IMG/VR virus record: IMGVR_UViG_3300048586_000089
Coordinates: 1 to 26,770 of that record
Direction: 5' to 3' (one strand)
Length of the DNA stretch: 26,770 bases
Origin: a virus
Below the pieces are notes generated by a model. That model searched no databases and had not been told where the DNA came from. It saw nothing but the letters and a program-made list of their open reading frames with translations. Numbering within the stretch: the stretch's first letter is position 1; every line of letters begins with the position of its first letter. Of the stretch, positions 5,335 to 26,424 are shown piece after piece. A program made the translations under genes and the position numbers.

Positions 5335-5363
5335 ATAATACCACGGGACTATAAGGCTGTCAA
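5335..5363 (-). promoter_or_regulatory. Sigma70-like promoter for the SSB gene
   Basis: TTGACA (5358-5363), a 17-base spacer, then TATTAT (5335-5340) with an upstream TGG giving an extended -10. The -35 box contains the TGA stop codon of the DNA polymerase gene. It lies about 45 bases before the SSB start codon. Confidence 0.75.
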
Positions 5364-7189
5364 TGGGTTTCTGCCCACGTCAATCCGATTTTATAATCCA
5401 TCTCAATGTCAACATTCAGATTGAACTGACCTCTAAGGAGAGAGGCAGCTAAATCAATAGCTTCGCAGTATTCTTTGATGTCCGTTAGAGCAACATCACT
5501 TTGAATTTCATCATGGATATTACCTACAAATAGAAAGTCAAGCTTTTCTCTCTTAGCTATTTTGTAGAGGTTAATCCCAAATTGCTTCATAACAATGCTG
5601 CCGTCCGGCTGTAGTTTGTAATTCAACGCAGCATGCTCACTAGGGCACAAAACTTTCCTTCCGTCAATAAGAGTAATGCGGCCACTTCTATGCTCTGCTC
5701 GGGCCTTGTCGATTGCGTTCTTCAACCCTGGTAGCGCGTTAAAGAGCGTTTGTTGAAGTTCTTTACCTTCTGCAACACCACCACCAACAATAGAACCAAT
5801 CTTTTTAGGAAAAGCCCCATACATAGTTGCATACAAAAGTGTCTTTGCAATTGCTTTAGTCTCAAGGCCACAAAGCTTTTGGTTGTAGACGTGAGGGTCG
5901 CCCTCACAAACTTGCTTAGTAAACTCAGGGTCATTGATGTGATGCGCTAGCATACGCAACTCAAGACCCTTAGCGTCCTTACCTACCAGCCTACGAAGTA
6001 CAGGGTTGCGGGTAACCCAGAGGTCTCTAAGTTCGTATGTATATCTTCCATCGTCCTTGAAGAGGATAACTGACTTATCAGTTTTGCTAACTCTGACTGC
6101 AGGGATGTTAGCGGTGTTTGGGGTATTATGAGACATTCGACCACCGCCAGCCCCATTGGTGTTGACGCGACCGTGGATAGCTTTTGTGTCATCATTATAA
6201 CATCCAATCCATGTTTTAAGCATCCTTGCTCTACTTGAGTATACTACCCAGTCAGCAAGTGCCCTAACTTCCTCAATTCCAGATTCTTCTGCATACTCGA
6301 TAAGGGATTCTTCATCAACCTGCGGGGCTCCTTTAGGTGTTAGAGACTTAGGTTCCCACCCAAGTTCTTGTAGTCGTAATGCTCTTTGCGCAGGGGAACC
6401 CAGATTAAAATCCACGAAATCGTAGAGAAGGAGCAATTCGCCCTTAATCTCGCTTTTAGGATACTGTTCAATCGCGTTTGAGACATTTTTAAATAGACTC
6501 CCATCTGCTTTCTTACGATACTTAATACGGTTGACTTCTTCAAGTCTTGGGGGAAACAACTTGTAGATTCGCTGTTGAAGCTTATCACATTTATCTGTAA
6601 GCGTGTTATACAGGATAATAGCACGCTCAATGTCAAAAGCAAACCCATTAGCCTCTTGTGTGTTAACAACTAGGCGAATCTCGTGCTCAATTTTAGCAGA
6701 CTTCTCTGAAAATCCTAGCTGTTTAAACTTGTCTAGAAGACGTAAGTAAACAGCTACACCAAGGTCAACGTCCCTTTCACAATACACAGCCATCTCTTCG
6801 CTGTATTTGTAAAAGTCATCAAACTTGTACTTAGGAAATTTCAGTCTTTCTCCCCAGCTTTCGAGGCTGTGTCCGCCTTCCAACGTAGGGTTAAACAAAG
6901 TGCTAAGAACATAAGTGTCCACACACCTTGAAAGACTAAGGCGTAACCCAAGAATCCGATTAAGAACAGGGATATCGAAAGAAAGAATATTGTGCCCAAC
7001 AAAAACAGCGTCAGGAGTAGAATCAATGCATTGATGAAACCAGTCAAGTATTCGTTCATGACCTACTAACCTCCATTTAATACCAGTAGTAATTTGCTTG
7101 ACAACAACTACCCAAATCTGAGTAGGCTTCAAGCCATCACACTCAATATCTACATAATAGTATCGTCCGTCTGGATTACTGAGATACAC
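5360..7189 (-). CDS. DNA polymerase I family (family A), T7 gp5-like
   Basis: 609 residues. The 3'-5' exonuclease domain shows VDIE (D14, E16), GHNILSFD (about 65-72) and YCERD (about 135). The polymerase domain has motif A KDAKGLELRMLA, motif B TKAIAKTLLYATMYGA, and motif C GNIHDEIQ with the catalytic His-Asp. In T7, motif B is TRDNAKTFIYGFLYGAG. Here the Arg equivalent (T7 R518) is Lys, while the Tyr that governs ddNTP acceptance (T7 Y526) is kept. Shorter than T7 gp5 (704 residues). Start GTG at 7189 overlaps the phosphoesterase gene by 14 bases, with AAGG upstream. It replicates phage DNA, probably with a host processivity factor. Confidence 0.93.
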   Translation of the reverse strand: MYLSNPDGRYYYVDIECDGLKPTQIWVVVVKQITTGIKWRLVGHERILDWFHQCIDSTPDAVFVGHNILSFDIPVLNRILGLRLSLSRCVDTYVLSTLFNPTLEGGHSLESWGERLKFPKYKFDDFYKYSEEMAVYCERDVDLGVAVYLRLLDKFKQLGFSEKSAKIEHEIRLVVNTQEANGFAFDIERAIILYNTLTDKCDKLQQRIYKLFPPRLEEVNRIKYRKKADGSLFKNVSNAIEQYPKSEIKGELLLLYDFVDFNLGSPAQRALRLQELGWEPKSLTPKGAPQVDEESLIEYAEESGIEEVRALADWVVYSSRARMLKTWIGCYNDDTKAIHGRVNTNGAGGGRMSHNTPNTANIPAVRVSKTDKSVILFKDDGRYTYELRDLWVTRNPVLRRLVGKDAKGLELRMLAHHINDPEFTKQVCEGDPHVYNQKLCGLETKAIAKTLLYATMYGAFPKKIGSIVGGGVAEGKELQQTLFNALPGLKNAIDKARAEHRSGRITLIDGRKVLCPSEHAALNYKLQPDGSIVMKQFGINLYKIAKREKLDFLFVGNIHDEIQSDVALTDIKEYCEAIDLAASLLRGQFNLNVDIEMDYKIGLTWAETH

Positions 7190-7742: not shown

Positions 7743-9371
7743 CTAGAAGGCTTCTGCATTGTTCAAACCTTCCCTGAAAGCTTTTTGCTCTTCCTCTGAT
7801 AGCTGCGATAACCTACTTGTAAACTCATTGTACCAGAGCATTGTTGCTGGGCCTGTTCGACCACAGAAACGGTTCTTCTCAATCAGAACTTCCGTCACAT
7901 TACGCCGCCAAGGGTCCGGGTCTGTCTTATCCCGTGTCAGCTTGATGACGATATTTGCAAGCTGTTCTGGGCCTGCAGAACTACGAATTTGACCGTTACG
8001 GTTTTGGTGAATTACTGCATGAACATTGATGTTAAGTTCCATACAAAGCATCTTTAACTTAGTGCTGATTTCATCAAGCTGCTTACGCTCATCACCTGAC
8101 TGGTCGGACACAACAATGCTGAGGTGGTCAAGAAAGATAAACTTACACCCAAGATTGTGCATGTGCCGGATTTTTGCCAAGACCTCGTGAATGTTGTTTG
8201 AGCCGAAGTGGTCCCAAATAACTACACGGTCATTGTTAAGGACGATGTTAAAAGCTTCTTGCAATTCTTCTTTTGTCCTAGGTGTGTCAGGAAGATGGTA
8301 TGGCTTACTGTTATGCACAGACAAAAGACCGAGAGCAGTATCTCGATTGGGCTCTTCTAGGTGAAGGAACCCTACACCATATTCAGTAGTTGTCAAGATA
8401 CTATATTCGATTTCCTTTAAGAACTGAGTCTTCCCAACACCAGTATCAGCGGTAATGAGGACAAGCTCAGACAGTCTTGCACCATAGGTCTGAGTGTTAA
8501 GCTCAGGAAACGGGTAAAGAATAGACTCATACTTCCTCTCCGTTAAGATTTCATCGAGCATATCCTTACCGACCTTAAGGCCAGCAGGCGTATACACTGG
8601 TGCTTGGAACCATTCTTTGACAAACTCAGCACTCTTTTTCATCTTAAGGTAGTCGTTAGCATCCTTAGCTTCTCGTAGAGTAAGAATACGAACTTTACCA
8701 ATAGGGAAAAGATTAGCTACGGCTTGGGCTGCTTCCTGCCCAGGATACCGAATAGCCCCTGTCCGCTTGTTTACCTTTGGTTCATCTTTGTCAAAGCAGA
8801 TAACAATACTGTCAAAGCTGTTTAAATACTCAAAAGCAGCAACACAATCCTCCGCGGCATAGTCAGCGCCCCTCGTGATAGACGCCACTGGGTATCGGTG
8901 TCCAGTCATCTCCCACGCAGCTAGGGCATCACACTCCCCTTCAACGAGAGTAATAGCCTTTGCAGAACCGGGTGGAAAAAGATGTTGGCCGAATAACCCA
9001 GCTTGTTCAAGGTCACCTTCGATGTAGTAAGTGCCATCAGTTTTCTTAATCTTGTTTGCTACATGATGACCTTCTGGGGTGAAGTAAGGAAAACAATAAA
9101 GCTTTCCATGGGATTCAGCATTAGGGTAAACACCTACTTTAAACCTCTCTGCCGCCAATGCTGAGATATTCCTGTCAACAAGCGGCCTGAACTTAGGGGG
9201 TAGCGGGGTTAGTGGGAGCTTCGTTTTTGTCTCCGAAACTTCCGCATTTTCTGGCATTGTATCTCCTTTTCGTTCATAGTGCCCACAAGAATGGCAGTAT
9301 TTATTTTCTTCATAATCGCTTAAAGCTTTCTTAGAACCACATTCAGGGCATCTAAGATTATGCTTTACCAT
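7743..9371 (-). CDS. Bifunctional DNA primase-helicase, T7 gp4-like
   Basis: 542 residues. The N-terminal zinc ribbon is C8, C11, C26, C29. A TOPRIM primase domain follows, with LVEGECDALAAWE and VICFDKDE. The C-terminal DnaB/gp4-type helicase has Walker A ADTGVGKTQF, Walker B IFLDHLSIVVS, and HAVIHQNRNG with the later GPEQLANIVIKLTRDK segment. The protein unwinds the fork and primes lagging-strand synthesis. An internal ATG at 9257 with a strong AAGGAG would yield a 504-residue form without the zinc ribbon, the same arrangement as T7 4A/4B. The start at 9371 has AGGAGG 12 bases upstream and overlaps the preceding gene by 14 bases. Confidence 0.93.
   Translation of the reverse strand: MVKHNLRCPECGSKKALSDYEENKYCHSCGHYERKGDTMPENAEVSETKTKLPLTPLPPKFRPLVDRNISALAAERFKVGVYPNAESHGKLYCFPYFTPEGHHVANKIKKTDGTYYIEGDLEQAGLFGQHLFPPGSAKAITLVEGECDALAAWEMTGHRYPVASITRGADYAAEDCVAAFEYLNSFDSIVICFDKDEPKVNKRTGAIRYPGQEAAQAVANLFPIGKVRILTLREAKDANDYLKMKKSAEFVKEWFQAPVYTPAGLKVGKDMLDEILTERKYESILYPFPELNTQTYGARLSELVLITADTGVGKTQFLKEIEYSILTTTEYGVGFLHLEEPNRDTALGLLSVHNSKPYHLPDTPRTKEELQEAFNIVLNNDRVVIWDHFGSNNIHEVLAKIRHMHNLGCKFIFLDHLSIVVSDQSGDERKQLDEISTKLKMLCMELNINVHAVIHQNRNGQIRSSAGPEQLANIVIKLTRDKTDPDPWRRNVTEVLIEKNRFCGRTGPATMLWYNEFTSRLSQLSEEEQKAFREGLNNAEAF
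9255..9268 (-). promoter_or_regulatory. Internal ribosome-binding site and start for a gp4B-like short helicase
   Basis: Within the primase-helicase gene, AAGGAG (9263-9268) lies 5 bases before an in-frame ATG (9255-9257, residue 39 of the long form). This site is stronger than the one at the gene's own start. It would produce a helicase lacking the zinc-binding primase module, which in T7 is needed alongside the long form. Confidence 0.65.
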
Positions 9372-10469: not shown

Positions 10470-10716
10470 CCCTAGTCTCCTTCATAGCGCTTACCACAAT
10501 TACATCCTCGGGTTGCCAATCACACTCAGGCGGAATATCCCACTTGAGCAATTCAGGTCTTGTCGCCCAATGAATGAGATCAGAGATACAGACAAGAAAT
10601 GCAGTACGGTGCTCGTAAGCTGTGGCACGTCTTGTTGTAATATTCGATACCCGATATTTATAAGTATAACTTTTTACTTCTTTTTCAGAGAAAGTTGAAT
10701 CTACTGCTGTAGTCAT
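10462..10716 (-). CDS. Hypothetical protein
   Basis: 84 residues from ATG at 10716, overlapping the previous stop as TGATG. No domain is recognised. It contains a Tyr/Lys-rich N-terminal stretch (EKEVKSYTYKYRVSN) and a central FLVCISDLIHWA segment. Base composition is AT-richer than the four genes that follow, in line with the ligase operon upstream, so the compositional boundary falls at its end. Confidence 0.6.
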   Translation of the reverse strand: MTTAVDSTFSEKEVKSYTYKYRVSNITTRRATAYEHRTAFLVCISDLIHWATRPELLKWDIPPECDWQPEDVIVVSAMKETRDE

Positions 10717-10907
10717 CAAAAGCTGTCCTCTTCATAAAGAGTATAACCCGAATCGTGGGCATAGTCAAGGTCAGTTTGAGTGACCCCCATTAATTCACCT
10801 AAGGCGTCAAAGGCCACTTCTTCACAAGTATTACATGGAAGAATTGAACCATCTCTGTAGTCAAATTTAATTTTCTGGATAGGTGTGTTACAGATGTGGC
10901 AGCGCAT
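10716..10907 (-). CDS. Small zinc-ribbon protein
   Basis: 63 residues with CHIC at 3-6 and CNTC near 25-28, spaced as a zinc ribbon; the middle reads KIKFDYRDGSILPC. Proteins of this size and pattern are common among small phage genes. A nucleic-acid or protein-contact role is inferred only from the fold. It begins 3 bases after the ATP-grasp gene ends and so is likely on the same transcript. Confidence 0.7.
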   Translation of the reverse strand: MRCHICNTPIQKIKFDYRDGSILPCNTCEEVAFDALGELMGVTQTDLDYAHDSGYTLYEEDSF

Positions 10908-10910
10908 ACC

Positions 10911-11663
10911 CTACAAGTCCTTCTTTAAAAAATAGTCACAATAGTCCGTTACAGTAGTCCCTGCAAGACCCGGTGCCGTGTTAATCTCTAATACATATGC
11001 CTTGGAATAGTGGTTATTCCAAATAACATCCACAGCACCGAAATCAAGGCCCGTAGCATCTAAAGAAGAACAAGCCGCAGTGATAACCCCCTCAGGGGGG
11101 TCTACACCTTCCCTAGCGTAAATAAACCCGTTCTGATGGTTACGGATAGCGAAGTTAGGGTTTTCCGCATCTAATCGCCGCATTTTCTTTTGCAGACTGA
11201 TGATAGAGCACCCTTTGCCTACATGAACACGATACTCTTCTGCTTTCTTTACATAGCGGACGTAGAGGTTACAATCCACAAGCTCCAAACGGTTACGAGC
11301 CAAGACAATACCATCGCCGCTATGACCGTTAAGTCTTGTGCGACAAACAACCATTCCATCTTTTTCAAAAACTTCATCAGGGATATCTTCCTTATTTGTC
11401 CAGTATTCAGGTGTAAGACCCTCAGGCATACTCCGAAAGAATAGCAGCTTATTTGAGGCGGTGCTGACTTTAAGCCTTGGGTTGAGAACAGTAGCCTCAG
11501 GAGGGGGGTGGTGTGAGGTATTGCCCCAATTAATCACAATGTCACCGGGGCGATACCTATATTTACTACCCTCAAGGCGAAGAACCTTACCCCCTAACTG
11601 GTCAGCAAGAGCCTTTGCGCTATGACTACCTTGCTTATAAGGCAGTACTCTAAATCTTGGCAT
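10911..11663 (-). CDS. ATP-grasp ligase (phiEco32-like)
   Basis: 250 residues. ATP-grasp features: VINWGN near 44, CRTRLNGHSGDGIVLA as the glycine-rich nucleotide loop, EYRVHVGKG, and the C-terminal metal-binding segment DFGAVDVIWN...AYVLEINTAPGLAGTT. ATP-grasp enzymes activate a carboxylate as acyl-phosphate and join it to an amine. In phiEco32-like phages an ATP-grasp accompanies COOH.NH2 ligases and a class II amidotransferase. Here it is the last enzyme of the eight-gene ligase operon. AGGA lies 10 bases before the ATG. Substrates are unknown; forming a peptide-like bond on a small molecule, protein or cell-envelope component is inference. Confidence 0.85.
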   Translation of the reverse strand: MPRFRVLPYKQGSHSAKALADQLGGKVLRLEGSKYRYRPGDIVINWGNTSHHPPPEATVLNPRLKVSTASNKLLFFRSMPEGLTPEYWTNKEDIPDEVFEKDGMVVCRTRLNGHSGDGIVLARNRLELVDCNLYVRYVKKAEEYRVHVGKGCSIISLQKKMRRLDAENPNFAIRNHQNGFIYAREGVDPPEGVITAACSSLDATGLDFGAVDVIWNNHYSKAYVLEINTAPGLAGTTVTDYCDYFLKKDL

Positions 11664-11682
11664 AATTTACAAGTCCTTTTTG

Positions 11683-12651
11683 TTAGAAGTCAATAACCCA
11701 TACGCCATCCCTTACCTGCCTAGGCCCTTCAAAGTCCCTTATAAGCTCCCTAAGGTCATTAATATCATCCATAAGAATCCGAGCATTGCCTCGTTGGGCG
11801 GCAGGGGCTTCTTCTTGTTCAACTTCTTGTCCCCAATCAAAGACATATGCAAGCTCTTGGATTACCCACACACCGTCTTGAACAGAATCCCAAGACCAGC
11901 CATCACCATTCTCGTCCGAAGAATAAATCTGGGAGAGAATCCGTCGAATAAAAGCAGGTCGGCCTTCTTCACTGTAGGTGGTTAGAATATGCGTTGGGTT
12001 TTTAAAGGAAAGTGCTTCGGTGTACAAAGCCTCAAGAAAGTTAAGCCACTTAAACAGCTTGCCAGGATTGCTCAACCCTTCTAAAGTCCTGAACTCCAAA
12101 GTCCCAAACTTCCTAAGTGTGTAGAGATTAAGAGAAGAATACTTCAGCCTATTCTCTTTGAAATCACAAAGCCCTGTAACAGTGAACTCAATGAAATCTG
12201 AAATAGGTTGAGGGGAAACATAGAAAGGAATGCAAAACAGATTTCCGTCCCTGCGTGGGGCGCACCAAGCAAGAGCGGCTTTCTCCACCATAGCCCAAAT
12301 CGTAATAATGTTTGCAACCTTACCCCAAGTAAGGTCGCTTACGTTAACGTGGACGTGGGTAGAGGTTCGATAAGAAGGCTTAAGGACAGAGCCGATATTC
12401 CTAAAATGCGCGAACAGGTCTTCGATTAATTTACGGGACTCCGTCAGGGTTTTGGGTGAGTCAAAGACATATTCACCTGACTCACCCCTGAGACTTCCAT
12501 CCCTATGGAAGGACCAACCGGGGATAAGGTCTTCTGCATCTGGTAGGCCAGCACCTTCCATCTCAACTTCAACACCAAAGCGAAGTCCTTTAGGACGGTA
12601 CCTAGAAGCACCAAACAATGAGGCTACAGTTTTTGTGAGATTAATGGGCAT
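11683..12651 (-). CDS. Amidoligase_2-type (glutamate-cysteine ligase fold) enzyme
   Basis: 322 residues. RFGVEVEMEG at about 24 carries the paired Glu of the glutamine-synthetase/GCS fold. W.FHRDGSLRG and GEYVF follow, then STHVHVNVSD (metal/nucleotide His pair), and KYSSLNLYTLRKFGTLEFRTLEG with the closing Arg. These match the Amidoligase_2 family, ATP-dependent enzymes that condense a carboxylate with an amine. A C-terminal acidic tail (about 270-322) is extra. ATG at 12651 has AAGGAG at 7-base spacing and overlaps the previous gene by 11 bases. It is one of three ATP-dependent ligases in the operon. Confidence 0.85.
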   Translation of the reverse strand: MPINLTKTVASLFGASRYRPKGLRFGVEVEMEGAGLPDAEDLIPGWSFHRDGSLRGESGEYVFDSPKTLTESRKLIEDLFAHFRNIGSVLKPSYRTSTHVHVNVSDLTWGKVANIITIWAMVEKAALAWCAPRRDGNLFCIPFYVSPQPISDFIEFTVTGLCDFKENRLKYSSLNLYTLRKFGTLEFRTLEGLSNPGKLFKWLNFLEALYTEALSFKNPTHILTTYSEEGRPAFIRRILSQIYSSDENGDGWSWDSVQDGVWVIQELAYVFDWGQEVEQEEAPAAQRGNARILMDDINDLRELIRDFEGPRQVRDGVWVIDF

Positions 12652-13330
12652 CCCTATACTCCTTGATAAGAAGCTCTTTAAGGAACGAATACTTAGGGTT
12701 TAGTTCGTAATTACCGTTGTCTCGGAAAAGGCCGATAGTGGTAATTGGCCCTCCCTTACAATACAAAAGGGACTTAGTGCCATTATCCTCGCCTTTGAAA
12801 GCAAAGGAGAAGCTGATAGGCCCACTAGCAGGGTTCCAAGGGTCGCCTCCTGCAATATACTCCCTGAAATTTTTCCTAATCCCACAGCAGGCATCCACAA
12901 ACTCTTGCGAGTAGAGTAAATCACGGAAAGAAGCGTTCCCTTGAATACGGGAATTACCGTCAGTTAGCCCTTGTTGATACCGACGGCAAGGTGCCCTGCC
13001 AATAAAACATAGAGACTGGTTAATCATAACAAAGCCTACAGAGAAGGCTTTAAAGTCGAACTTAGGGCTAGTCAAGACTCTTCGTTGCTTCTCACCCTCA
13101 CCTACAATAGGAAGAGGGTAGAAGTACACCCGAATTCTATTATCTCCAAAGAGTTTTGGATTAAAAGCAACCTCCGAGACATACACAGGCTTACCGTCGT
13201 ATTTGACAATAGAGCCTGCTAGCCTAAGGTTAGCCTCTTCTATACTGTCGTACCAATTGTCAGTATTTTCGGGAAGGCTGGCATCGTCATCAGCAAGGTC
13301 TAGCCCCTGCATATCAACAGCGTCAGGCAC
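12641..13330 (-). CDS. Conserved-context protein of the ligase operon, unknown
   Basis: 229 residues starting with GTG at 13330 (AGGA 9 bases before); an ATG at 13312 is an alternative. The sequence is beta-rich: KYDGKPVYVSEVAFN, RVYFYPLPI, FKAFSVGFVMINQ, FIGRAPCRRYQQGLT. CFIGRAPCRRYQQGL has basic residues that could hold a nucleic acid or phosphate. No family is recognised. It is wedged between the two amidoligases with overlaps on both sides, so a role in the same pathway is likely (carrier, substrate or accessory subunit), but this is inference from position only. Confidence 0.7.
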   Translation of the reverse strand: MPDAVDMQGLDLADDDASLPENTDNWYDSIEEANLRLAGSIVKYDGKPVYVSEVAFNPKLFGDNRIRVYFYPLPIVGEGEKQRRVLTSPKFDFKAFSVGFVMINQSLCFIGRAPCRRYQQGLTDGNSRIQGNASFRDLLYSQEFVDACCGIRKNFREYIAGGDPWNPASGPISFSFAFKGEDNGTKSLLYCKGGPITTIGLFRDNGNYELNPKYSFLKELLIKEYRDAH

Positions 13331-14222
13331 AGGTCATAATCCTTTCAATCTCGTTGAACTCCTTAGAAGCCTGAGGAAGGTTCGAATTTTTAAAGTACTT
13401 ATAAAGTTCTTGGGGCGATGCCTTACGGGAAATACGCTTCTGAAGACCTGTATTCAGACCATAATACCAATCCCTACAATATCCAAAAAGTTCTTCAACC
13501 TTAGTCGAATCCGATTGAAGCCTTCGGATTTTTGGGGCGTTTGGCAAAGACTCTTCAACAGCAAGGTTCACCATGTTAAAGACCCAAGACCTCATTTCAG
13601 GGTCAAGAACCCAGAAGTTAGAAAGAGTCCGGTACTCAACACCGTAAGGCTTAGGCCGGAAAGCTCCCGCCTTGCCATACATCTTACGACGACGAACATC
13701 GTTATCGTACATAAGAGACGGATAACCAACATAACGGTCAAGACGACGGACAACATGGCGACAATTTTGTAGGTGAAGAGGGTCGGTCACAGGAATGTCA
13801 GCCTGATTACGCCATCCAACATGGATGTGACCTCCGGCAGCACGGACCCTCCCAAGCGCCGCAGGTCGTGGGTTCTCAAGACCACTGTAAGCATTATAAT
13901 CCGGGTCGCACCCAAGCTCCTTAGCTTCATCAGGTGTCGCGTCCCATTGTTTCTGGCGGAAAGTGATAGACGGGATGGCTACGAGTTCATGCCCCGGCAG
14001 CATATCCCGAAGAGCGCCGAGAACTTTCTCAATATTCTTGTTCCAGTCTGTGACATTATCAACAGGGTCAATATTGAACTCAACTGCCATACCGTCAACT
14101 TGGACAGCACCTCCATCAACCTTAAAGGGTGCTTCCTTTGTTCCGGGGATAAGCCCAGCAGCAGAGATAAACGTCTTCTTCTTTCGAACAAAAAGTTCAG
14201 GGTCACAACCGTAAGTAAACAT
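13323..14222 (-). CDS. COOH.NH2 ligase, phiEco32-like amidoligase
   Basis: 299 residues. GCDPELFVR at the N-terminus supplies the catalytic Glu of the fold. GLIPGTKEAP, AVQVDGMAVEFNI, GGHIHVGW (metal His residues) and GKAGAFRPKPYGVEYRTLSNFW follow. The order matches the phage COOH.NH2 ligase family named after phiEco32, a member of the glutamate-cysteine ligase/glutamine synthetase superfamily. It uses ATP to join a carboxylate to an amine. The start overlaps the amidotransferase stop as TAATG, so the two are tightly coupled. It is a distinct paralogue from the Amidoligase_2 protein two genes later. Confidence 0.9.
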   Translation of the reverse strand: MFTYGCDPELFVRKKKTFISAAGLIPGTKEAPFKVDGGAVQVDGMAVEFNIDPVDNVTDWNKNIEKVLGALRDMLPGHELVAIPSITFRQKQWDATPDEAKELGCDPDYNAYSGLENPRPAALGRVRAAGGHIHVGWRNQADIPVTDPLHLQNCRHVVRRLDRYVGYPSLMYDNDVRRRKMYGKAGAFRPKPYGVEYRTLSNFWVLDPEMRSWVFNMVNLAVEESLPNAPKIRRLQSDSTKVEELFGYCRDWYYGLNTGLQKRISRKASPQELYKYFKNSNLPQASKEFNEIERIMTCA

Positions 14223-15475
14223 TAGTGAACACTCCTCTTTTGCTTGTCTTCAGAAAATCTTTGACCTAAAAGATACATAAACCTTGTCTGGGCATCAGTT
14301 TCGTTGGGCACTAAAATTACATTTTCAAATGAGGATGGAATAACACCCCAATAGAGGTTAGGTTTAGCGGCGTCTGAGCAAGACTCACAAAGGACTTGAG
14401 TATCACCTAGGATAAGTTGGTGAGGCCTGTCCCGTTGAACCTTTGCGCCGCAGCAGGCACATCCACCTTCTGTAATTTCATCCCATTCATCGTCAGGGAT
14501 AAAAGCACCAGGCCTACCTCTACCACTCCTAGAAGGGGATTTCGTCGTCGAAGAAGTCTTTTGAGGCAGCGAGATAACGTTGCTTTGCTCTTTTTCGCTG
14601 TCGTCGGCTTTTACCTTTTTCTCGACCTCCAAAAACTTCGCATGAAAGTCTTCCAAGCCCGCCCAAGGGTCCCGATAGCTGTCCGCCCAACTTGAGTGCC
14701 TTTGAAAAGGGGGCGTTACTTTAGCTGCCCCCTTCATTGTGATTGAAGTGTAATCATCAAAAGCTTTGTGCTTATCCGGTAGCTGGAAAACTAAACACTC
14801 TTCAGGCTCAATAGACCAAATACCCTTAGGGCAGTCATCCGTGGACTCGAACGTGACACCATTCTGGCTTGCTGCGAACGTCAGCATATTGACTTGAGAC
14901 GCCCAGAAAAGAGCCTTACGGTCCTTTGTATATGCAAAGAAAAGAGGCCGCTTGTCATTCCTTGTCAGAAACAGGCGCTGACTATCCGAGTCAAAGACAG
15001 TAAAGGCCCAGGCACCACTCATCTCAGCAATTGCAGCCTTCATCCCGATTTCGGACATTCGCCAGATAGCCCAATCGCTGTCAACTTCAAAATATTCAGA
15101 ATCCGTATAACCTGTAAAATTGTCAAGAGTTCCGTTCTGAGCGCCGATAATGTGCTTATGTTGGAAGGGGTGGGCGTTCATATCGTTAATTTGCCCAATA
15201 GTTTTAAACCTATTGTGGCCCATCAAGAGACGAGTCTCTGAAAAATTAGCGCGCATAAAAGAATTATATTCATGGTGGGCAGTGATAAACTCAAAGCTGG
15301 GCACTGCTCCCTTGAAAACCTTAGTGCTCGATGGCCGGCTCTTAGCAAAAGGCTCATGATAGACGCCTACCCCTGTGCTATGAGGTCCACGGTAAACATC
15401 AATGTAAAGTAGCGTGTGAAACATATCTACGGTTTGTTTCGTAGCAGTTCCCATAAATCCTACAAGACCACACAT
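14222..15475 (-). CDS. Class II glutamine amidotransferase (Ntn hydrolase)
   Basis: 417 residues. The start is set at ATG 15475 because it places the catalytic Cys at residue 2 (MCGLVGFMG), as needed for autocatalytic exposure. An in-frame upstream start would add 7 residues and block this. GHNRFKT and the oxyanion motif NGTLDN fit GATase II of the GlmS/PurF/AsnB type. The enzyme hydrolyses glutamine to release ammonia, or a related amide. The C-terminal third is low-complexity (SSTTKSPSRSGRGRPG), then CACCG and CESC form a zinc-ribbon-like module. No synthetase domain is fused, so it must supply a partner ligase in trans, probably the ligases next to it. AAGGGG lies 8 bases before the ATG. 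Confidence 0.88.
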   Translation of the reverse strand: MCGLVGFMGTATKQTVDMFHTLLYIDVYRGPHSTGVGVYHEPFAKSRPSSTKVFKGAVPSFEFITAHHEYNSFMRANFSETRLLMGHNRFKTIGQINDMNAHPFQHKHIIGAQNGTLDNFTGYTDSEYFEVDSDWAIWRMSEIGMKAAIAEMSGAWAFTVFDSDSQRLFLTRNDKRPLFFAYTKDRKALFWASQVNMLTFAASQNGVTFESTDDCPKGIWSIEPEECLVFQLPDKHKAFDDYTSITMKGAAKVTPPFQRHSSWADSYRDPWAGLEDFHAKFLEVEKKVKADDSEKEQSNVISLPQKTSSTTKSPSRSGRGRPGAFIPDDEWDEITEGGCACCGAKVQRDRPHQLILGDTQVLCESCSDAAKPNLYWGVIPSSFENVILVPNETDAQTRFMYLLGQRFSEDKQKRSVH

Positions 15476-16170
15476 TATTGAACCCCTTCCACACAAAGAA
15501 GAAAATCTTCAAAACAAGTTGAAAACAATTCGAAAGTGTCTCCATCCAAATCATATTCAGGGTGGGGTTGGAAACAGAAAATACCTAGCTCAGGATAGCT
15601 TAGGCATTCTGGTTCTATGCTTTCGCCAAGAATATCCATAATGTCGTTAGTGGTAGTCCAACTACTAGCTGACCCCTCGGTCTTACCAGCCACATGGACA
15701 GCAAACCTTTCACCAACACCTTGAGATGCTGCGTGGATAACAGCATCCTTTGTCGGGTGCATCATTTGGTGGTGTGTGCTAGTAACTTGGTAACGATACG
15801 CGGGAAGAATCTCGCCGTCGTTATCCACAAGAAAGGCTTCATGCGTTTTCCCTGTTGCATGACCCCGCACATCTTGAATCATCCCCCCACCGGCCATGAC
15901 ATTAAGGAACTGTCCGCCACGACAAATACCTACCATCAGAATGTCATTAGCTGCACAATACTCATACATCTCCTTGTCAATAAGGTCGCGGGCCAAGACA
16001 ACCTGTGTACTTGGGTGTCGCGGGCTGTCGTACAGTTTCGGGTCTACATCAGGCCCGCCTGTAAAGAGAACTACATTAGCGTCCTTTAGCCGAGGGGTTA
16101 GAGTCCAACCCATTTTTGCAACAAACTCGTGAAAAGCGTAGGGGTATTGACAGTTGATATATACAAACAT
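15475..16170 (-). CDS. Class I glutamine amidotransferase-like, peptidase C26 (gamma-glutamyl hydrolase) family
   Basis: 231 residues. The triad is in place: Cys83 in GICRGGQ, and His203 and Glu205 in QPHPEY. GGPDVDP and the THHQMM segment are usual for C26 enzymes such as PuuD, which cut gamma-glutamyl amides. It lies between the class II amidotransferase and an unknown protein, with TAATG overlaps on both sides. A hydrolase for gamma-glutamyl bonds within a cluster of three ligases suggests that gamma-glutamylated intermediates are made and then trimmed. Confidence 0.88.
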   Translation of the reverse strand: MFVYINCQYPYAFHEFVAKMGWTLTPRLKDANVVLFTGGPDVDPKLYDSPRHPSTQVVLARDLIDKEMYEYCAANDILMVGICRGGQFLNVMAGGGMIQDVRGHATGKTHEAFLVDNDGEILPAYRYQVTSTHHQMMHPTKDAVIHAASQGVGERFAVHVAGKTEGSASSWTTTNDIMDILGESIEPECLSYPELGIFCFQPHPEYDLDGDTFELFSTCFEDFLLCVEGVQ

Positions 16171-17150
16171 TAATTGTACTCCCCTCGAATAGTCTTAAGG
16201 ATTAAGATGATAAAGGACTTACGAGCTTCTTCAACAGTAAACCTGTAATCAAGCTTTTCTTCAACGGCTTGCCCGAATGGGTTAGGGGCTGAATAGACTT
16301 CCTTTACTTCTGGCCTACCTCCATTTCTAACAGAATCACGAATATCCATAAATTCTCTTAGCAGAGAATTTCGATTCTCGTATTGGAGTTCACGACTACC
16401 AGAGTATAAAGAATCACCCCACATAGGCGCGTAATACGACCCGGTTTGGTTTTTGCGAGCGTACTGACCCCTGAGATAATTGAAAAAGGATTTCCGCGTA
16501 AAATTTGGGAAGGAAAACAAGGTATGCCCTGTAATTGGGGATAATTCCCCCGCCTCCTCTGGGGTATCATACCACCACAATTGGCTGTAGAGAAGAAGTA
16601 GAAATGGGTCGATAGGGATTTGCTCTTTAAGTGAATCAACCCAATTTTGACAGGGATAACACCTCTCTGAGAACCTCCGGCCCATGGAGAAAGCCCCACC
16701 GTAATCACGGGAAATATACTTTGAATAGTCGTGGCGCGCAAAAAGAAAACCGTCGGAGTAATCTTTTTGTGCTAAGAAGAAATTAGCATAAGGGCTTTCT
16801 TCAGACAGCCATTTGAGATACGTGCTAACATCTTCCCTGTTTTTCGCGTACTTATGATTGCTATAATAAACAGAGATGGTATTATTTTCATCCCAGTCAC
16901 TGTCGTACGCGTAAAAAGCATGGCAAATCATGTGAGTTTTTGACTCAATAAATCCGCCGTCACAGTCAAACAAAAACTGACCACCTAAATCTCCCACATA
17001 ACGCTTATCAATTTGTTCTTTAATGCGAGTTAGAAGGGCATCAGGGAGGTATTCCTTAGGCTCTGGGGTGCAGCGCTCAAAGGCGGGCCATTCTTTGTTG
17101 AGCAAGGTGACAAGTTCGTCAAGGCTTTTGGTTTCAAGCTGCGTTCCCAT
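16170..17150 (-). CDS. Unknown protein of the ligase operon
   Basis: 326 residues from ATG at 17150, with AAGGAGG 6 bases before it. A longer frame to 17447 lies inside the cyclotransferase gene and has no start site, so it is rejected. The protein is rich in Tyr, Trp and Phe (DSDWDENNTISVYY, DYSKYISRDYGGAF, LWWYDTPEEAG), with CYPCQNW near the middle. No motif of a known enzyme is seen. Its overlaps with the cyclotransferase (17 bases) and the C26 enzyme (1 base) place it in the same translationally coupled operon. Confidence 0.7.
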   Translation of the reverse strand: MGTQLETKSLDELVTLLNKEWPAFERCTPEPKEYLPDALLTRIKEQIDKRYVGDLGGQFLFDCDGGFIESKTHMICHAFYAYDSDWDENNTISVYYSNHKYAKNREDVSTYLKWLSEESPYANFFLAQKDYSDGFLFARHDYSKYISRDYGGAFSMGRRFSERCYPCQNWVDSLKEQIPIDPFLLLLYSQLWWYDTPEEAGELSPITGHTLFSFPNFTRKSFFNYLRGQYARKNQTGSYYAPMWGDSLYSGSRELQYENRNSLLREFMDIRDSVRNGGRPEVKEVYSAPNPFGQAVEEKLDYRFTVEEARKSFIILILKTIRGEYN

Positions 17151-17550
17151 AAACAACCTCCTTGTTAAAGTGGAGATACTGCACCCAATCTGCGATAGCG
17201 ACATTCCTGTCGAAGGTCGTGATGATAGACGCCTTATCTTTCGCATCACCACAATAAACATACATCCAAGCCATCGAACCGCCGAAAGGTACGACAACTC
17301 GGTCATACATATACGGGTAGCCTTCCAAGTTATCACACCGCTTAAGGCACTCCTTGTCAATGGCGTAAATCTCACCAATGACAGAAGCCCCTTCCATAGC
17401 CTGAACACCGGGAAAGGCTCCAAGAGAGAACATTCGGAAGCCTTCAACAGTATGGATAGCTACAAGCTCCTGGTCTTGTAGGAGCCTGTGGTTAGGTTGG
17501 TTACGGCGCAAAGTTCCGTAGACAAACAAGTAATGGTCTTTCTTTTCCAT
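17134..17550 (-). CDS. Gamma-glutamylcyclotransferase-like protein (AIG2/GGCT fold)
   Basis: 138 residues. FVYGTLRR (YGTL at 11-14) is the phosphate-like substrate loop of the fold, and CDNLEGYPYMYDR carries the catalytic Glu (E76). MAWMYVY closes the domain. GGCT-type enzymes convert gamma-glutamyl-amino acids or amines into 5-oxoproline plus the free amine. It is the first gene of the operon. Upstream (17551-17696) is AT-rich with a promoter on the opposite strand and an inverted repeat; no leftward promoter is clear, so transcription probably continues from tRNA-Leu. Confidence 0.85.
   Translation of the reverse strand: MEKKDHYLFVYGTLRRNQPNHRLLQDQELVAIHTVEGFRMFSLGAFPGVQAMEGASVIGEIYAIDKECLKRCDNLEGYPYMYDRVVVPFGGSMAWMYVYCGDAKDKASIITTFDRNVAIADWVQYLHFNKEVVYGNAA
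17221..17230 (-). repeat. Copy of the GTCTATCATC motif
   Basis: GCGTCTATCATC within the cyclotransferase gene, 71 bases upstream of the start of the 326-residue gene. One of six identical 10-mers, all in the same orientation. Confidence 0.5.
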
Positions 17551-17577: not shown

Positions 17578-17605
17578 TTGACAGGATTTTTCAGCATGGT
17601 ATAAT
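17578..17605 (+). promoter_or_regulatory. Consensus sigma70 promoter on the opposite strand
   Basis: TTGACA, 16 bases, TATAAT, preceded by TGG (extended -10). It points rightward, against every gene from 1 to 22,700. The following leader is very AT-rich and leads into the antisense strand of tRNA-Leu. Its sequence closely matches the main leftward promoter at 22703-22731, including TTGACAGG.TTTTT and ATGGTATAAT. Confidence 0.7.
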
Positions 17606-17696: not shown

Positions 17697-17783
17697 TGGT
17701 CTGCCTGAAGGGACTCGAACCCTTACGTCTCGAAGGACACCGAATTTTAAGTCCGGGGCGTCTACCTATTCCGCCACAGGCAG
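17697..17783 (-). tRNA. tRNA-Leu (anticodon TAA)
   Basis: 87 bases with an encoded CCA. The acceptor CTGCCTG/CAGGCAG is perfect with discriminator A. The D arm TGGCGG...AGGTAGACGC, the anticodon loop CTTAAAA (anticodon TAA), the long class II variable arm (GTGTCCTTCGAGAC) and the T arm AAGGGTTCGAGTCCCTT are all present. It decodes UUA/UUG, plausibly to serve AT-rich phage codons. It begins 3 bases after the pentapeptide gene stop, and is likely processed from the same transcript. Confidence 0.93.
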
Positions 17784-17786
17784 TTA

Positions 17787-18374
17787 TTAATACGTGTACT
17801 CCTTAGCTTCTTTCTTTGTTAAGAAAAAGTGAACCCCCGGAGCACACTCAACACGAAAATCATCTGAATAAGAATCGGGGATAAATTTATCCCCAACATA
17901 ATATACAGCGTTATTGCGATAGGAATAACCAATTTTCCTAGAAAGCCCTTTTTTATTCTCAATGTGTATTACTTCCGCATAGGAGGCTCTACATTTACGG
18001 CCGACCAAGGAAGCGGTCCTTTTAGCGTCTGACGGTATCCTAAGTTGGGCTAAACTATCGCCGTGAAGCTTTTTCCAAACAATCAATTCCCCTTCTTGGG
18101 GGATTTGGAAGTCAGGGAGAATGGCATTCTCAAGGTTAGCACCACAAAGGTTAGCACCACAAAGGTTAGCACTCTCAAGGTTAGCACTCTCAAGGTTAGC
18201 ACTCTCAAGGTTAGCACCCCAAAGGTTAGCACCCCAAAGGTTAGCACCACAAAGGTTAGCACCTCTAAGGTTAGCACTCTCAAGGTTAGCATTTCTTAGG
18301 TCAGCACCTTGAAGATTGGCTTTACTAAGTTTGGAGTAGGGTTCAATCTTGTAACCGTTCACTATTTTCGTCAT
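17787..18374 (-). CDS. Pentapeptide-repeat protein with C-terminal DUF5758-like domain
   Basis: 195 residues from ATG at 18374, preceded by GCGGAG at 8 bases; a longer frame upstream runs through the previous gene and is rejected. Residues about 18-80 are roughly 13 A(N/D)LxxA pentapeptides (ANLQGADLRNANLESANLRG type), forming a right-handed beta-helix. The C-terminal part (LIVWKKLHGDSLAQLRIPSDAKR, then CRASYAEVI and CAPGVHFFLTKKEA) matches the DUF5758 pattern often joined to such repeats. Function is unknown: some pentapeptide proteins mimic DNA to protect gyrase, but nothing here shows that. Confidence 0.85.
   Translation of the reverse strand: MTKIVNGYKIEPYSKLSKANLQGADLRNANLESANLRGANLCGANLWGANLWGANLESANLESANLESANLCGANLCGANLENAILPDFQIPQEGELIVWKKLHGDSLAQLRIPSDAKRTASLVGRKCRASYAEVIHIENKKGLSRKIGYSYRNNAVYYVGDKFIPDSYSDDFRVECAPGVHFFLTKKEAKEYTY
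18131..18316. repeat. Tandem 15-bp DNA repeat coding for pentapeptides
   Basis: About twelve 15-base units of the type AAGGTTAGCACYNYNN, some identical in adjacent copies. Identity at the DNA level (not just protein) implies recent slippage or duplication, so repeat number may vary among relatives. Confidence 0.85.
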
Positions 18375-18379
18375 TGGAT

Positions 18380-18610
18380 TTACTCCGCAATAGTAGCCCG
18401 GCAAGGATAGAAAGAGTTTTCCAGCATTTGATACATAGCCTCTTGTGTAATAAACACAAAGATGTCGTGAGCTTCTTGTTTGTTCGAAACCCACTTCTCT
18501 ACAGGATTGATTGAGTGCTGCTCGAATGCGGCATGGCATGCGTTACGAAACTCTTCGTCTTCTGCATACCTATCGCGGTAGTTCTTTACATGGTCATAGT
18601 CGGTCTTCAT
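18380..18610 (-). CDS. Hypothetical protein
   Basis: 76 residues from ATG at 18610, with GGAG 8 bases upstream; a GTG at 18619 lies too close to that site. The product is acidic and helical (DHVKNYRDRYAEDEEFRNAC). No family is recognised. It ends 5 bases before the pentapeptide start. A copy of the GTCTATCATC motif lies about 56 bases before its ATG. Confidence 0.6.
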   Translation of the reverse strand: MKTDYDHVKNYRDRYAEDEEFRNACHAAFEQHSINPVEKWVSNKQEAHDIFVFITQEAMYQMLENSFYPCRATIAE

Positions 18611-24593: not shown

Positions 24594-24878
24594 ATGGCTA
24601 CTGGCCCCAATACCCAAAAGAATACCCCAGCCCGGCAGAGGGCTCAGGCGAAGTACAACGCCAAGCCTGAGCAGAAGAAGCGCAGGGCGGCCCGCAACGC
24701 CGCTAGGCGGGAGATGATTCGTAGGGGGAAAGCCCGCAAGGGCGATGGTAAGGATGTGGGTCACGCTAACGGCAACCCCAGGGATAACCGGGCGGGGAAT
24801 CTCCGCATGGAGACGAAGGCAAGCAACCGTAGTTTAAAGCGAACAAAGACTGGTCGTAAAAAGGACCCTCGTGACTAA
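24594..24878 (+). CDS. Small basic HNH-like protein between terminase subunits
   Basis: 94 residues, ATG at 24594, with AAGGAACG upstream. The first half is extremely basic (KKRRAARNAARREMIRRGKARKG). The second half reads KDVGHANGNPRDNRAGNLRM followed by TKASNRS, matching the core of phage HNH-type proteins: first His in VGH, then DN...NLR. The last His of a canonical HNH is replaced by Asn, so nuclease activity is uncertain. HNH proteins next to terminase genes assist DNA packaging in several phages. It overlaps the large terminase by 8 bases. Confidence 0.65.
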   Translation: MATGPNTQKNTPARQRAQAKYNAKPEQKKRRAARNAARREMIRRGKARKGDGKDVGHANGNPRDNRAGNLRMETKASNRSLKRTKTGRKKDPRD

Positions 24879-26424
24879 TAACGCAATGCAGGAAATCCGG
24901 GCAGCTGCTGAAGCTGACCTTGAGACGTTCATCCGTCTGGTAGCAAAGTACCAAGTGCTAGGCTCCGTGCATCAAGAACTTCTCTCGTGGATGACACGCC
25001 CCAGTGCTAGCAGCCACCAACTTATTCTCCTCCCACGGGACCACGGCAAGAGCCGTATGGTCGCCTTCTGGGTCGCATGGATGATTACTCGGCAACCGGA
25101 TATCCGCATTCTGTATATCAGCTCTACAAGTAACCTTGCGGAAAAGCAGCTACACTTCATCAAGCAAATCCTCACTAGCCCTATCTACCGCCGCTACTGG
25201 CCCGAGATGATTAACGCAGAAGAGGGCAAGAGGGAAAAGTGGAGCGCCGGGGAAATCAGCGTTGACCACCCCAAGCGTAAAGAAGAAGCCATCAGAGACC
25301 CTACGGTGTTCACTGCGGGTCTTACCACAAGCATTACGGGCATGCACTGCGATGTGGCGGTGCTGGATGACGTTGTTGTGTATGAGAACGCTTACACCGA
25401 GGAGGGTCGTCGTAAGGTTGAATCTCAGTACTCGCTGCTTACCTCTATTCAAGGGACCGGCAGCATTCAAAAGGTCGTAGGGACACGTTACCACCCCAAG
25501 GACCTTTACGGTACTATGATTGAGATGGAGGCGGAAGATTACGACGAAGATGGTAATATTATCGGAAGTACACCAGTCTACGAGGTCTTTGAGCGAGCCG
25601 TTGAGAATGCGGGGGACGGCACAGGGGAGTTTCTCTGGCCTAAGCAACAACGCACAGACGGTAAGTGGTTCGGGTTTGACAGGGCAGAACTGGCGAAGAA
25701 GCGCGCCACCTACCCCGACAAGACCCAATTCCGGGCGCAGTACTACAACGACCCCAATGACCCTGACAACGCCCGCATTGACAGGGACAGGTTTCAATAC
25801 TATGAACCCCGGTTCCTGAAATATGACCAGGGTAATTGGTTCTATAAAGACCGTAAGCTTAATATCTTTGCTGCTGTGGATTTTGCGTACACTGTTCATA
25901 AACGTAGTGACTTCACCGCAATCGTTGTTATAGGCGTAGACCGCGAGTGGAATACCTACGTTCTTGAGATTGACCGTTTCAAGACAGACAAAATCAGCGA
26001 ATACTTCCGACATATCCTAGACCTGCACGGGAAGTACGGCTTCCGAAAACTGGGGGCAGAAACCACTGCGGCTCAAAAGGCTATTGTGAAGGAGTTGCAA
26101 GAGCAGTATATCAAGCCGAACGGTATGTACCTGTCTATTGCTGAACTGAAGCACAGCGCCCATGAGGGGACAAAGGAAGAGCGTATTGCCGCTATCCTTG
26201 AACCTCGTTATGAAAACATGCAGGTGTGGCACTACCGCGGCGGGAACACAACTATTCTTGAAGATGAGCTTGTCAACCGCCACACCCAGCACGACGACAT
26301 GATGGACGCGCTAGCCGCTGCTATCAGCATTGCAGTGCCGCCTGTAGGTATTCTGGCAAGGGATAAAGAAGGTAATAGAAGGAATGTGTCTTATCACCCG
26401 CGTTGGGGCGGCGTCGCCGCGTAA
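24871..26424 (+). CDS. Terminase large subunit
   Basis: 517 residues from GTG at 24871, with AAGGA 5 bases upstream; an ATG 15 bases in is the alternative. Walker A is LPRDHGKS (54-61), and Walker B CDVAVLDDVV lies about residue 165. The C-terminal RuvC-like nuclease domain has FAAVDFAYTVHKRSDFTAIV and a later DDMMDALAAA. It is the ATPase motor and headful/cohesive-end nuclease that fills the capsid. It is followed 26 bases later by the portal gene, the usual packaging order. Confidence 0.93.
   Translation: MTNNAMQEIRAAAEADLETFIRLVAKYQVLGSVHQELLSWMTRPSASSHQLILLPRDHGKSRMVAFWVAWMITRQPDIRILYISSTSNLAEKQLHFIKQILTSPIYRRYWPEMINAEEGKREKWSAGEISVDHPKRKEEAIRDPTVFTAGLTTSITGMHCDVAVLDDVVVYENAYTEEGRRKVESQYSLLTSIQGTGSIQKVVGTRYHPKDLYGTMIEMEAEDYDEDGNIIGSTPVYEVFERAVENAGDGTGEFLWPKQQRTDGKWFGFDRAELAKKRATYPDKTQFRAQYYNDPNDPDNARIDRDRFQYYEPRFLKYDQGNWFYKDRKLNIFAAVDFAYTVHKRSDFTAIVVIGVDREWNTYVLEIDRFKTDKISEYFRHILDLHGKYGFRKLGAETTAAQKAIVKELQEQYIKPNGMYLSIAELKHSAHEGTKEERIAAILEPRYENMQVWHYRGGNTTILEDELVNRHTQHDDMMDALAAAISIAVPPVGILARDKEGNRRNVSYHPRWGGVAA

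Follow-up and report, generated by a model that had tools for sequence, protein, structure and literature searches.

An amidoligase cassette of lytic phages in an IMG/VR virus record: partner genes, gamma-glutamyl-removing enzymes and candidate chemistry

What lytic phages make with a compact operon of ATP-dependent ligases, glutamine amidotransferase and gamma-glutamyl-removing enzymes is the question raised by the locus described here, which occupies positions 10911-17550 of the window, i.e., the complete IMG/VR record IMGVR_UViG_3300048586_000089 (26,770 bases, classed linear). The lytic phages that spend 6-8 kb on such a cassette number in the hundreds; their hosts include Pseudomonas, Escherichia, Vibrio and Aeromonas, and some of them grow on laboratory hosts. 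Proposals concerning the cassette product date from 2009, and no measurement of this product was found in a literature search.

Gene organization

Eight co-directional and mostly overlapping genes, without internal stops by ORF check, were present on the minus strand in the order GGCT, U2, C26, class II GATase, COOH.NH2 ligase, U6, Amidoligase_2 and ATP-grasp, U2 and U6 being uncharacterized. The preliminary description of the region as an eight-gene, one-strand operon with named domains was borne out by the positions of the ORFs and by their Pfam and PHROG matches. In agreement with the overlaps claimed for most genes, the junctions in 5' to 3' order were -17, -1, -1, -1, +10, -11 and +19 nt, and the +10 junction between COOH.NH2 ligase and U6 becomes -8 if U6 uses a GTG start. 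A purine-rich Shine-Dalgarno-like sequence preceded most cassette starts, and that of U2 (ATG 17150) was preceded by a perfect AAGGAGG. For the GATase, the start chosen by the ORF caller (TTG 15496) was rejected in favor of ATG 15475, which places Cys at the N-terminus within the nucleophile motif M-C-G-L-V-G.

A replication module, including primase/helicase (7743-9371) and DNA polymerase (5360-7189), adjoined the cassette downstream on the same strand. Proximity of replication genes would be in keeping with DNA hypermodification, in which an amino acid or amide is placed on phage DNA to evade restriction, as would the resistance of cassette-bearing Gordonclarkvirinae to restriction-modification without a known DNA-modification pathway (PMC11990801). 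However, kuravirus resistance was ascribed by the authors of that study to dCTP deaminase and dU (PMC11990801), and no base-activating enzyme was seen in the operon. Moreover, DNA of cassette-bearing phage tf was cut by RsaI, HpaI, EcoRV, SmaI and HaeIII (PMC3517423) and that of the cassette-bearing LUZ24-like phage U17 by 11 of 16 enzymes (PMC11945000). Since DNA from both phages was cut by many restriction enzymes, the published digests speak against wholesale tagging of DNA in LUZ24-like carriers. Thus, tagging of phage DNA, as suggested in the preliminary description, is disfavored for these carriers, and DNA hypermodification appears highly improbable as the function of the cassette.

Enzymes of the cassette

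In all six recognized enzymes, alignment indicated that the window protein kept the residues conserved among its relatives; the catalytic degeneracy considered beforehand was thus not observed. The three ATP-dependent ligases noted previously were confirmed by domain matches as well as by conserved residues. The phiEco32-like COOH.NH2 ligase (13323..14222, 299 aa) matched COOH-NH2_lig (PF14395, 1e-13) and phrog_3815 (4e-81), with D7, E9, K29, E48, H132, H134, R178, R189, E196 and R198 invariant or nearly so. Amidoligase_2, a ligase resembling glutamylcysteine synthetase (GCS) (11683..12651, 322 aa; PF12224, 2e-6; phrog_7469, 2e-51), had conserved E28, E30, E60, H99, H101, E186 and R188, while the RimK-like ATP-grasp ligase (10911..11663, 250 aa), identified by phrog_2599 (1.5e-73) and weakly by Pfam (RimK, 0.11), had conserved K72, E143, R145, K160, D212, E226 and N228. 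In the class II (NTN) glutamine amidotransferase (14222..15475, 417 aa; PF13522, 1e-12; phrog_4736, 7e-63), the nucleophile Cys was conserved in 100% of relatives and positions of a C-terminal four-Cys motif in 87-96%. Unusually long versions of the ATP-grasp, GATase and amidoligase proteins carried no extra Pfam domain hinting at substrate, and none of the eight cassette proteins matched anti-phage defense models (PADLOC).

The remaining two enzymes were a GGCT/AIG2-like gamma-glutamyl(amine) cyclotransferase (17134..17550, 138 aa; PF06094, 5e-23), in which E76 and other conserved positions were kept, and a C26-type gamma-glutamyl hydrolase of class I GATase fold (15475..16170, 231 aa; PF07722, 3e-17; phrog_7218, 7e-40) with conserved C83, H203 and E205. 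The nearest solved chains for GGCT were YtfP (1xhs, 5e-13) and AIG2-like domain-containing protein 1 (3jub, 4e-9), the latter being of the human GGACT type. For C26 they were 7d4r, 7d50 and 7d53 ('probable glutamine amidotransferase', presumably P. aeruginosa SpuA) and 3fij, and a weak NCBIfam match to gamma-glutamyl-CDP-amidate hydrolase was also noted. As judged by sequence similarity, the nearest solved or curated relatives of both proteins are enzymes that act on gamma-glutamyl compounds. The resemblance of C26 and GGCT to catabolic enzymes for polyamines and gamma-glutamylamines would also suit nutrient scavenging, in which the cassette degrades or interconverts gamma-glutamyl amines or polyamines and directs their nitrogen to phage synthesis. 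Three ATP-consuming ligases point instead to synthesis, however, and no oxidase or dehydrogenase was found alongside the cassette genes; we regard scavenging as very unlikely.

Distribution and gene order

A profile survey was performed on 58 loci, comprising 37 IMG/VR loci found through the COOH ligase, 20 annotated phage regions and the window. Apart from the COOH ligase, present in 58/58 by construction, genes were detected as follows, some loci ending early: GATII in 57, AMID2 in 57, ATP-grasp in 56, U6 in 49, C26 in 41 and GGCT in 29. Two main orders were noted, GATII-COOH-U6-AMID2-GRASP in 35 loci and COOH-U6-AMID2-GATII-GRASP in 12. Thus, the genes recur as an ordered set rather than as scattered members, and the return of the identical order in dozens of diverged phages excludes a chance arrangement. 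In tblastn searches, the COOH ligase was found in 317 phage records, every one below 60% identity, and carriers ranged over Zobellviridae and over lytic phages of LUZ24-like, phiEco32-like, 7-11-like and further types. When the genomes of 84,980 prokaryote species were scanned, with one search pattern only, the sole matches were 12 MAG contigs, which look like phage DNA since 11 of them hold further cassette genes, the other (L066) having the ligase alone. The terminase of the window was nearest to that of Cobavirinae (Celeribacter phage P12053L, 62.5%). Both COOH ligase and ATP-grasp were absent genome-wide from the cobaviruses P12053L, ICBM1, SIO1 and T5S1-k141_653015, and the cassette therefore seems to be gained and lost as one block.

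The eight genes almost certainly belong to the amidoligase ('peptidoglycan modification') cassette already described from lytic phages, here in intact form. The PF14395 ligase has its conserved residues, Amidoligase_2 lies close downstream beyond one gene of about 200 aa, ATP-grasp and class II GATase are in the operon, and C26 and GGCT are both present. According to Duhaime et al. (2017), who cite Iyer and Hardies 2013, a seven-gene 'peptidoglycan modification cassette' occurs in many such phages (PMC5498523), and the proposal is repeated in papers on phiM6 (PMC6256558) and U17 (PMC11945000). The related idea of a role in phiEco32 wall modification or superinfection is credited to Iyer 2009 in a later paper (PMC10580990). 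In these sources, with Iyer 2009 and Hardies 2013 represented by the papers that cite them, the function is a hypothesis each time (Iyer 2009, Hardies 2013, Duhaime 2017), and our literature search found no bench experiment on it. Of the candidate pathway in the preliminary description, therefore, the gene set in one operon stood, whereas novelty was not supported, the cassette having been published for many phages.

Partner genes U2 and U6

The expectation that both unassigned families accompany the ligases was upheld. The U2 protein (16170..17150, 326 aa) was without a match in direct tblastn, pattern, Pfam and PHROG searches. It is nonetheless not an orphan, since a profile built from its positional neighbors, with U2 itself left out, recovered it at 2.7e-15. 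Iterated profile searches drifted into Amidoligase_2 and were rejected in favor of a two-round search. The resulting family, usually located directly upstream of C26, was characterized by C76 (32/32), R158 (32/32) and H209 (29/32), and U2 may thus be a Cys enzyme with C76/R158/H209 as candidate catalytic trio. It was also the fastest-evolving cassette protein, with a mean pairwise identity of 0.18 compared with 0.43 for COOH ligase and ATP-grasp over the same 27 loci, a pace that would suit a component whose target varies. The AF2 model of U2 was too poor (pLDDT 63) to bear on a papain-like or other Cys hydrolase fold around C76/H209, and it gave no credible fold match.

U6 (12641..13330, 229 aa from GTG or 223 aa from ATG 13312; phrog_11055, 3e-16) was detected in 49 loci, in all of which it lay between COOH and AMID2. 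The profile did not detect it in the most diverged order types, tblastn alone found only 5 records, and sequence searches revealed no solved homolog. Its AF2 model was good (pLDDT 85.3), its fold matches were viral proteins only, one of them named as coming from cassette-bearing CW02, and its N-terminal half showed weak SH3/chromo-barrel-like matches to solved folds (Z at most 6). Since the alignment contained no invariant set of catalytic appearance, our reading is that U6 may be a non-catalytic scaffold.

The weak SH3-barrel-like half would also allow U6 to be an adaptor for protein tagging, in which the RimK-like ATP-grasp and GCS-like ligases decorate a protein of the host or the phage with amino acids or a peptide and thereby redirect host machinery. 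Annotation of phrog_2599 as ribosomal protein S6 glutaminyl transferase is in keeping with such tagging, as is middle or early cassette expression; in PaP3, cassette genes ORF42-48 were middle genes with a peak at 10-30 min alongside replication genes (PMC4707531). However, no small tag protein was recognized in the operon, no proteomic report was found in the literature, and one tagging step needs fewer than three ligases and two gamma-glutamyl removers. None of the results points to a tagged protein or envelope component. On balance, protein tagging seems quite unlikely.

Gamma-glutamyl-removing enzymes and the proposed pathway

Among 45 loci with enough flanking sequence, C26 and GGCT were both encoded in 15, C26 only in 17, GGCT only in 13 and neither in 0, i.e., all 45 encode at least one gamma-glutamyl-removing enzyme. 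Genome-wide searches of seven C26-only phages revealed no GGCT, and those of eight GGCT-only phages no C26. By Fisher test, complementarity gave p = 0.0005 with each locus counted separately and p = 0.0025 with the loci grouped into 39 clusters at 60% identity. With a coarser grouping into 21 clusters at 50% identity p rose to 0.37, and the complementarity is therefore suggestive only. Furthermore, occurrence of the two together in 15 loci indicates that they are not simple alternatives.

The notion of a gamma-glutamyl conjugate that is made, trimmed and recycled, as put forward in the preliminary description, is a reasonable if putative reading of the genes. Ergothioneine, putrescine, butirosin and Campylobacter phosphoramidate pathways attach a gamma-glutamyl group and later detach it with C26-, NTN- or GGCT-type enzymes, and PuuA-PuuD, EgtA-EgtC and BtrJ-BtrG are precedents for its use as a protecting group. 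Because of these precedents and the relatives of C26 and GGCT described above, we favor, tentatively and at somewhat less than an even chance, a chemistry in which a soluble precursor carries a gamma-glutamyl handle. From the observed gene set, gene order, conserved residues and co-occurrence we infer the following steps. Starting from a soluble amine or peptide, the two GCS-like ligases, together with the RimK-like ATP-grasp enzyme, would assemble a compound with amide or peptide linkages. A gamma-glutamyl group would be attached as handle or protecting group, and C26 and/or GGCT would take this group off. The class II GATase would supply ammonia or act as an amidohydrolase, U6 would be the non-catalytic scaffold that joins the two GCS-like ligases, and the rapidly evolving U2, with its Cys, Arg and His, may be the enzyme that determines the last step, either transfer or trimming. 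The fuller picture, i.e., an assembly line with protecting-group logic that yields an undescribed amide metabolite or conjugate in lytic infection, with U2 as a host-adapting family of Cys-dependent enzymes and U6 as a dedicated scaffold, is offered as speculation that we think unlikely.

As acceptor, a peptidoglycan precursor is the single most likely candidate, one that we nevertheless name with considerable doubt. Modification of peptidoglycan, in which the ligases alter stem-peptide precursors through three unusual linkages and so block superinfection or prepare lysis, can be compatible with the gamma-glutamyl mechanism, to which it adds a named acceptor. It is the published proposal for phiEco32, RIO-1, PSA-HP1, phiM6 and LUZ24-like phages; the relatives of ATP-grasp include D-Ala-D-Ala ligase, and the carriers have bacteria as their listed hosts. 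On the other hand, none of the cassette proteins matched a cell-wall substrate domain in Pfam or NCBIfam, the published proposals rest on gene content, and no wall analysis was found in the literature. Peptidoglycan modification is accordingly a possible but doubtful explanation.

Comparison with known systems

The favored gamma-glutamyl chemistry resembles PuuA-PuuD, EgtA-EgtC and BtrJ-BtrG in that an ATP-dependent ligase adds, and a C26, NTN or GGCT enzyme would remove, the gamma-glutamyl group. The likeness is by analogy only, since those systems have known substrates and mostly other ligase families; PF00120, the glutamine-synthetase type to which PuuA of the Puu gamma-glutamyl-putrescine pathway belongs, had no Pfam match among the eight proteins.

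Among phages, LUZ24, PaP3, UFV-P2, phiEco32 and 7-11 share COOH, U6, AMID2, GATII, ATP-grasp and GGCT with the window but, unlike the window, have GATII after AMID2. LUZ24, PaP3, phiEco32 and 7-11 also differ from it in having no C26 genome-wide, and LUZ24, PaP3 and phiEco32 carry two genes in the place of U2 that are not detectably related to it. The cassette of RIO-1 and PSA-HP1 is likened to that of the window by description rather than by sequence. The passage describing it lists seven genes, including GGCT, glutamine amidotransferase, two amidoligases and ATP-grasp, and does not itself mention U2 or U6.

The closest agreement in order was with Zobellviridae (Pseudomonas TC6, PA11 and O4, Citrobacter CVT22, Salinivibrio CW02 and oyster phages), in which U2-C26-GATII-COOH-U6-AMID2-GRASP is arranged as in the window and likewise located upstream of primase/helicase. 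In the window, however, GGCT comes first and overlaps U2, whereas most of the listed Zobellviridae are without GGCT, and in CW02 and T5S1 it is located downstream. Thus, the window cassette is a further member of a known group, with a slightly unusual order. What is new here is the description of U2 and U6 as partner families, the pattern of C26 and GGCT occurrence and the case made against tagging of DNA in bulk; the fixed partners, the candidate trio of U2 and the C26-or-GGCT rule turn the label 'cell wall modification' into testable predictions.

The class II glutamine amidotransferase encoded in the cassette (window 14222-15475, minus strand) carries a four-cysteine motif at its C-terminal end, formed by C346, C349, C370 and C373 in the numbering of the open reading frame. 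Conservation of these four residues was 87-96%, and the motif is probably a zinc ribbon. A diverged type of cassette, with two class II amidotransferase genes and a different gene order, was found in four of the compared loci (L030, L032, L034 and L037), in none of which was U6, the uncharacterised protein encoded between the COOH.NH2 ligase and Amidoligase_2 genes, detected.

Directly 3' of the ATP-grasp gene lies a minus-strand gene for a 63-aa protein (window 10716-10907) with weak matches to both DUF4428 and Lar-like restriction alleviation proteins. At the other end, the operon is directly preceded by a minus-strand tRNA-Leu gene with anticodon TAA (17697-17783) and, further upstream on the same strand, by a gene for a pentapeptide-repeat protein with a DUF5758 domain (17787-18539). 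An extended sigma-70 promoter sequence (TTGACA-16-TATAAT plus TG; 12/12 consensus match) is located immediately upstream of the operon at 17578-17605 on the plus strand, yet is oriented away from the operon genes and toward the region of the tRNA-Leu and pentapeptide genes.

In four unrelated phages, a ribose-phosphate pyrophosphokinase and nicotinate/nicotinamide phosphoribosyltransferase gene pair, representing NARP2-like NAD salvage, was noted close to the cassette (L046, 1979-4260; L050, 3978-6541; L053, 4739-8948; L058, 17009-20147).

By its terminase (window 24871-26421, plus strand), which served for placement of the phage, the nearest group is Cobavirinae; four members of this group lack the cassette. 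Among known cassette-bearing phages, phiEco32 (L049) and other Gordonclarkvirinae have been reported to show strong restriction resistance without a known DNA modification pathway (PMC11990801).
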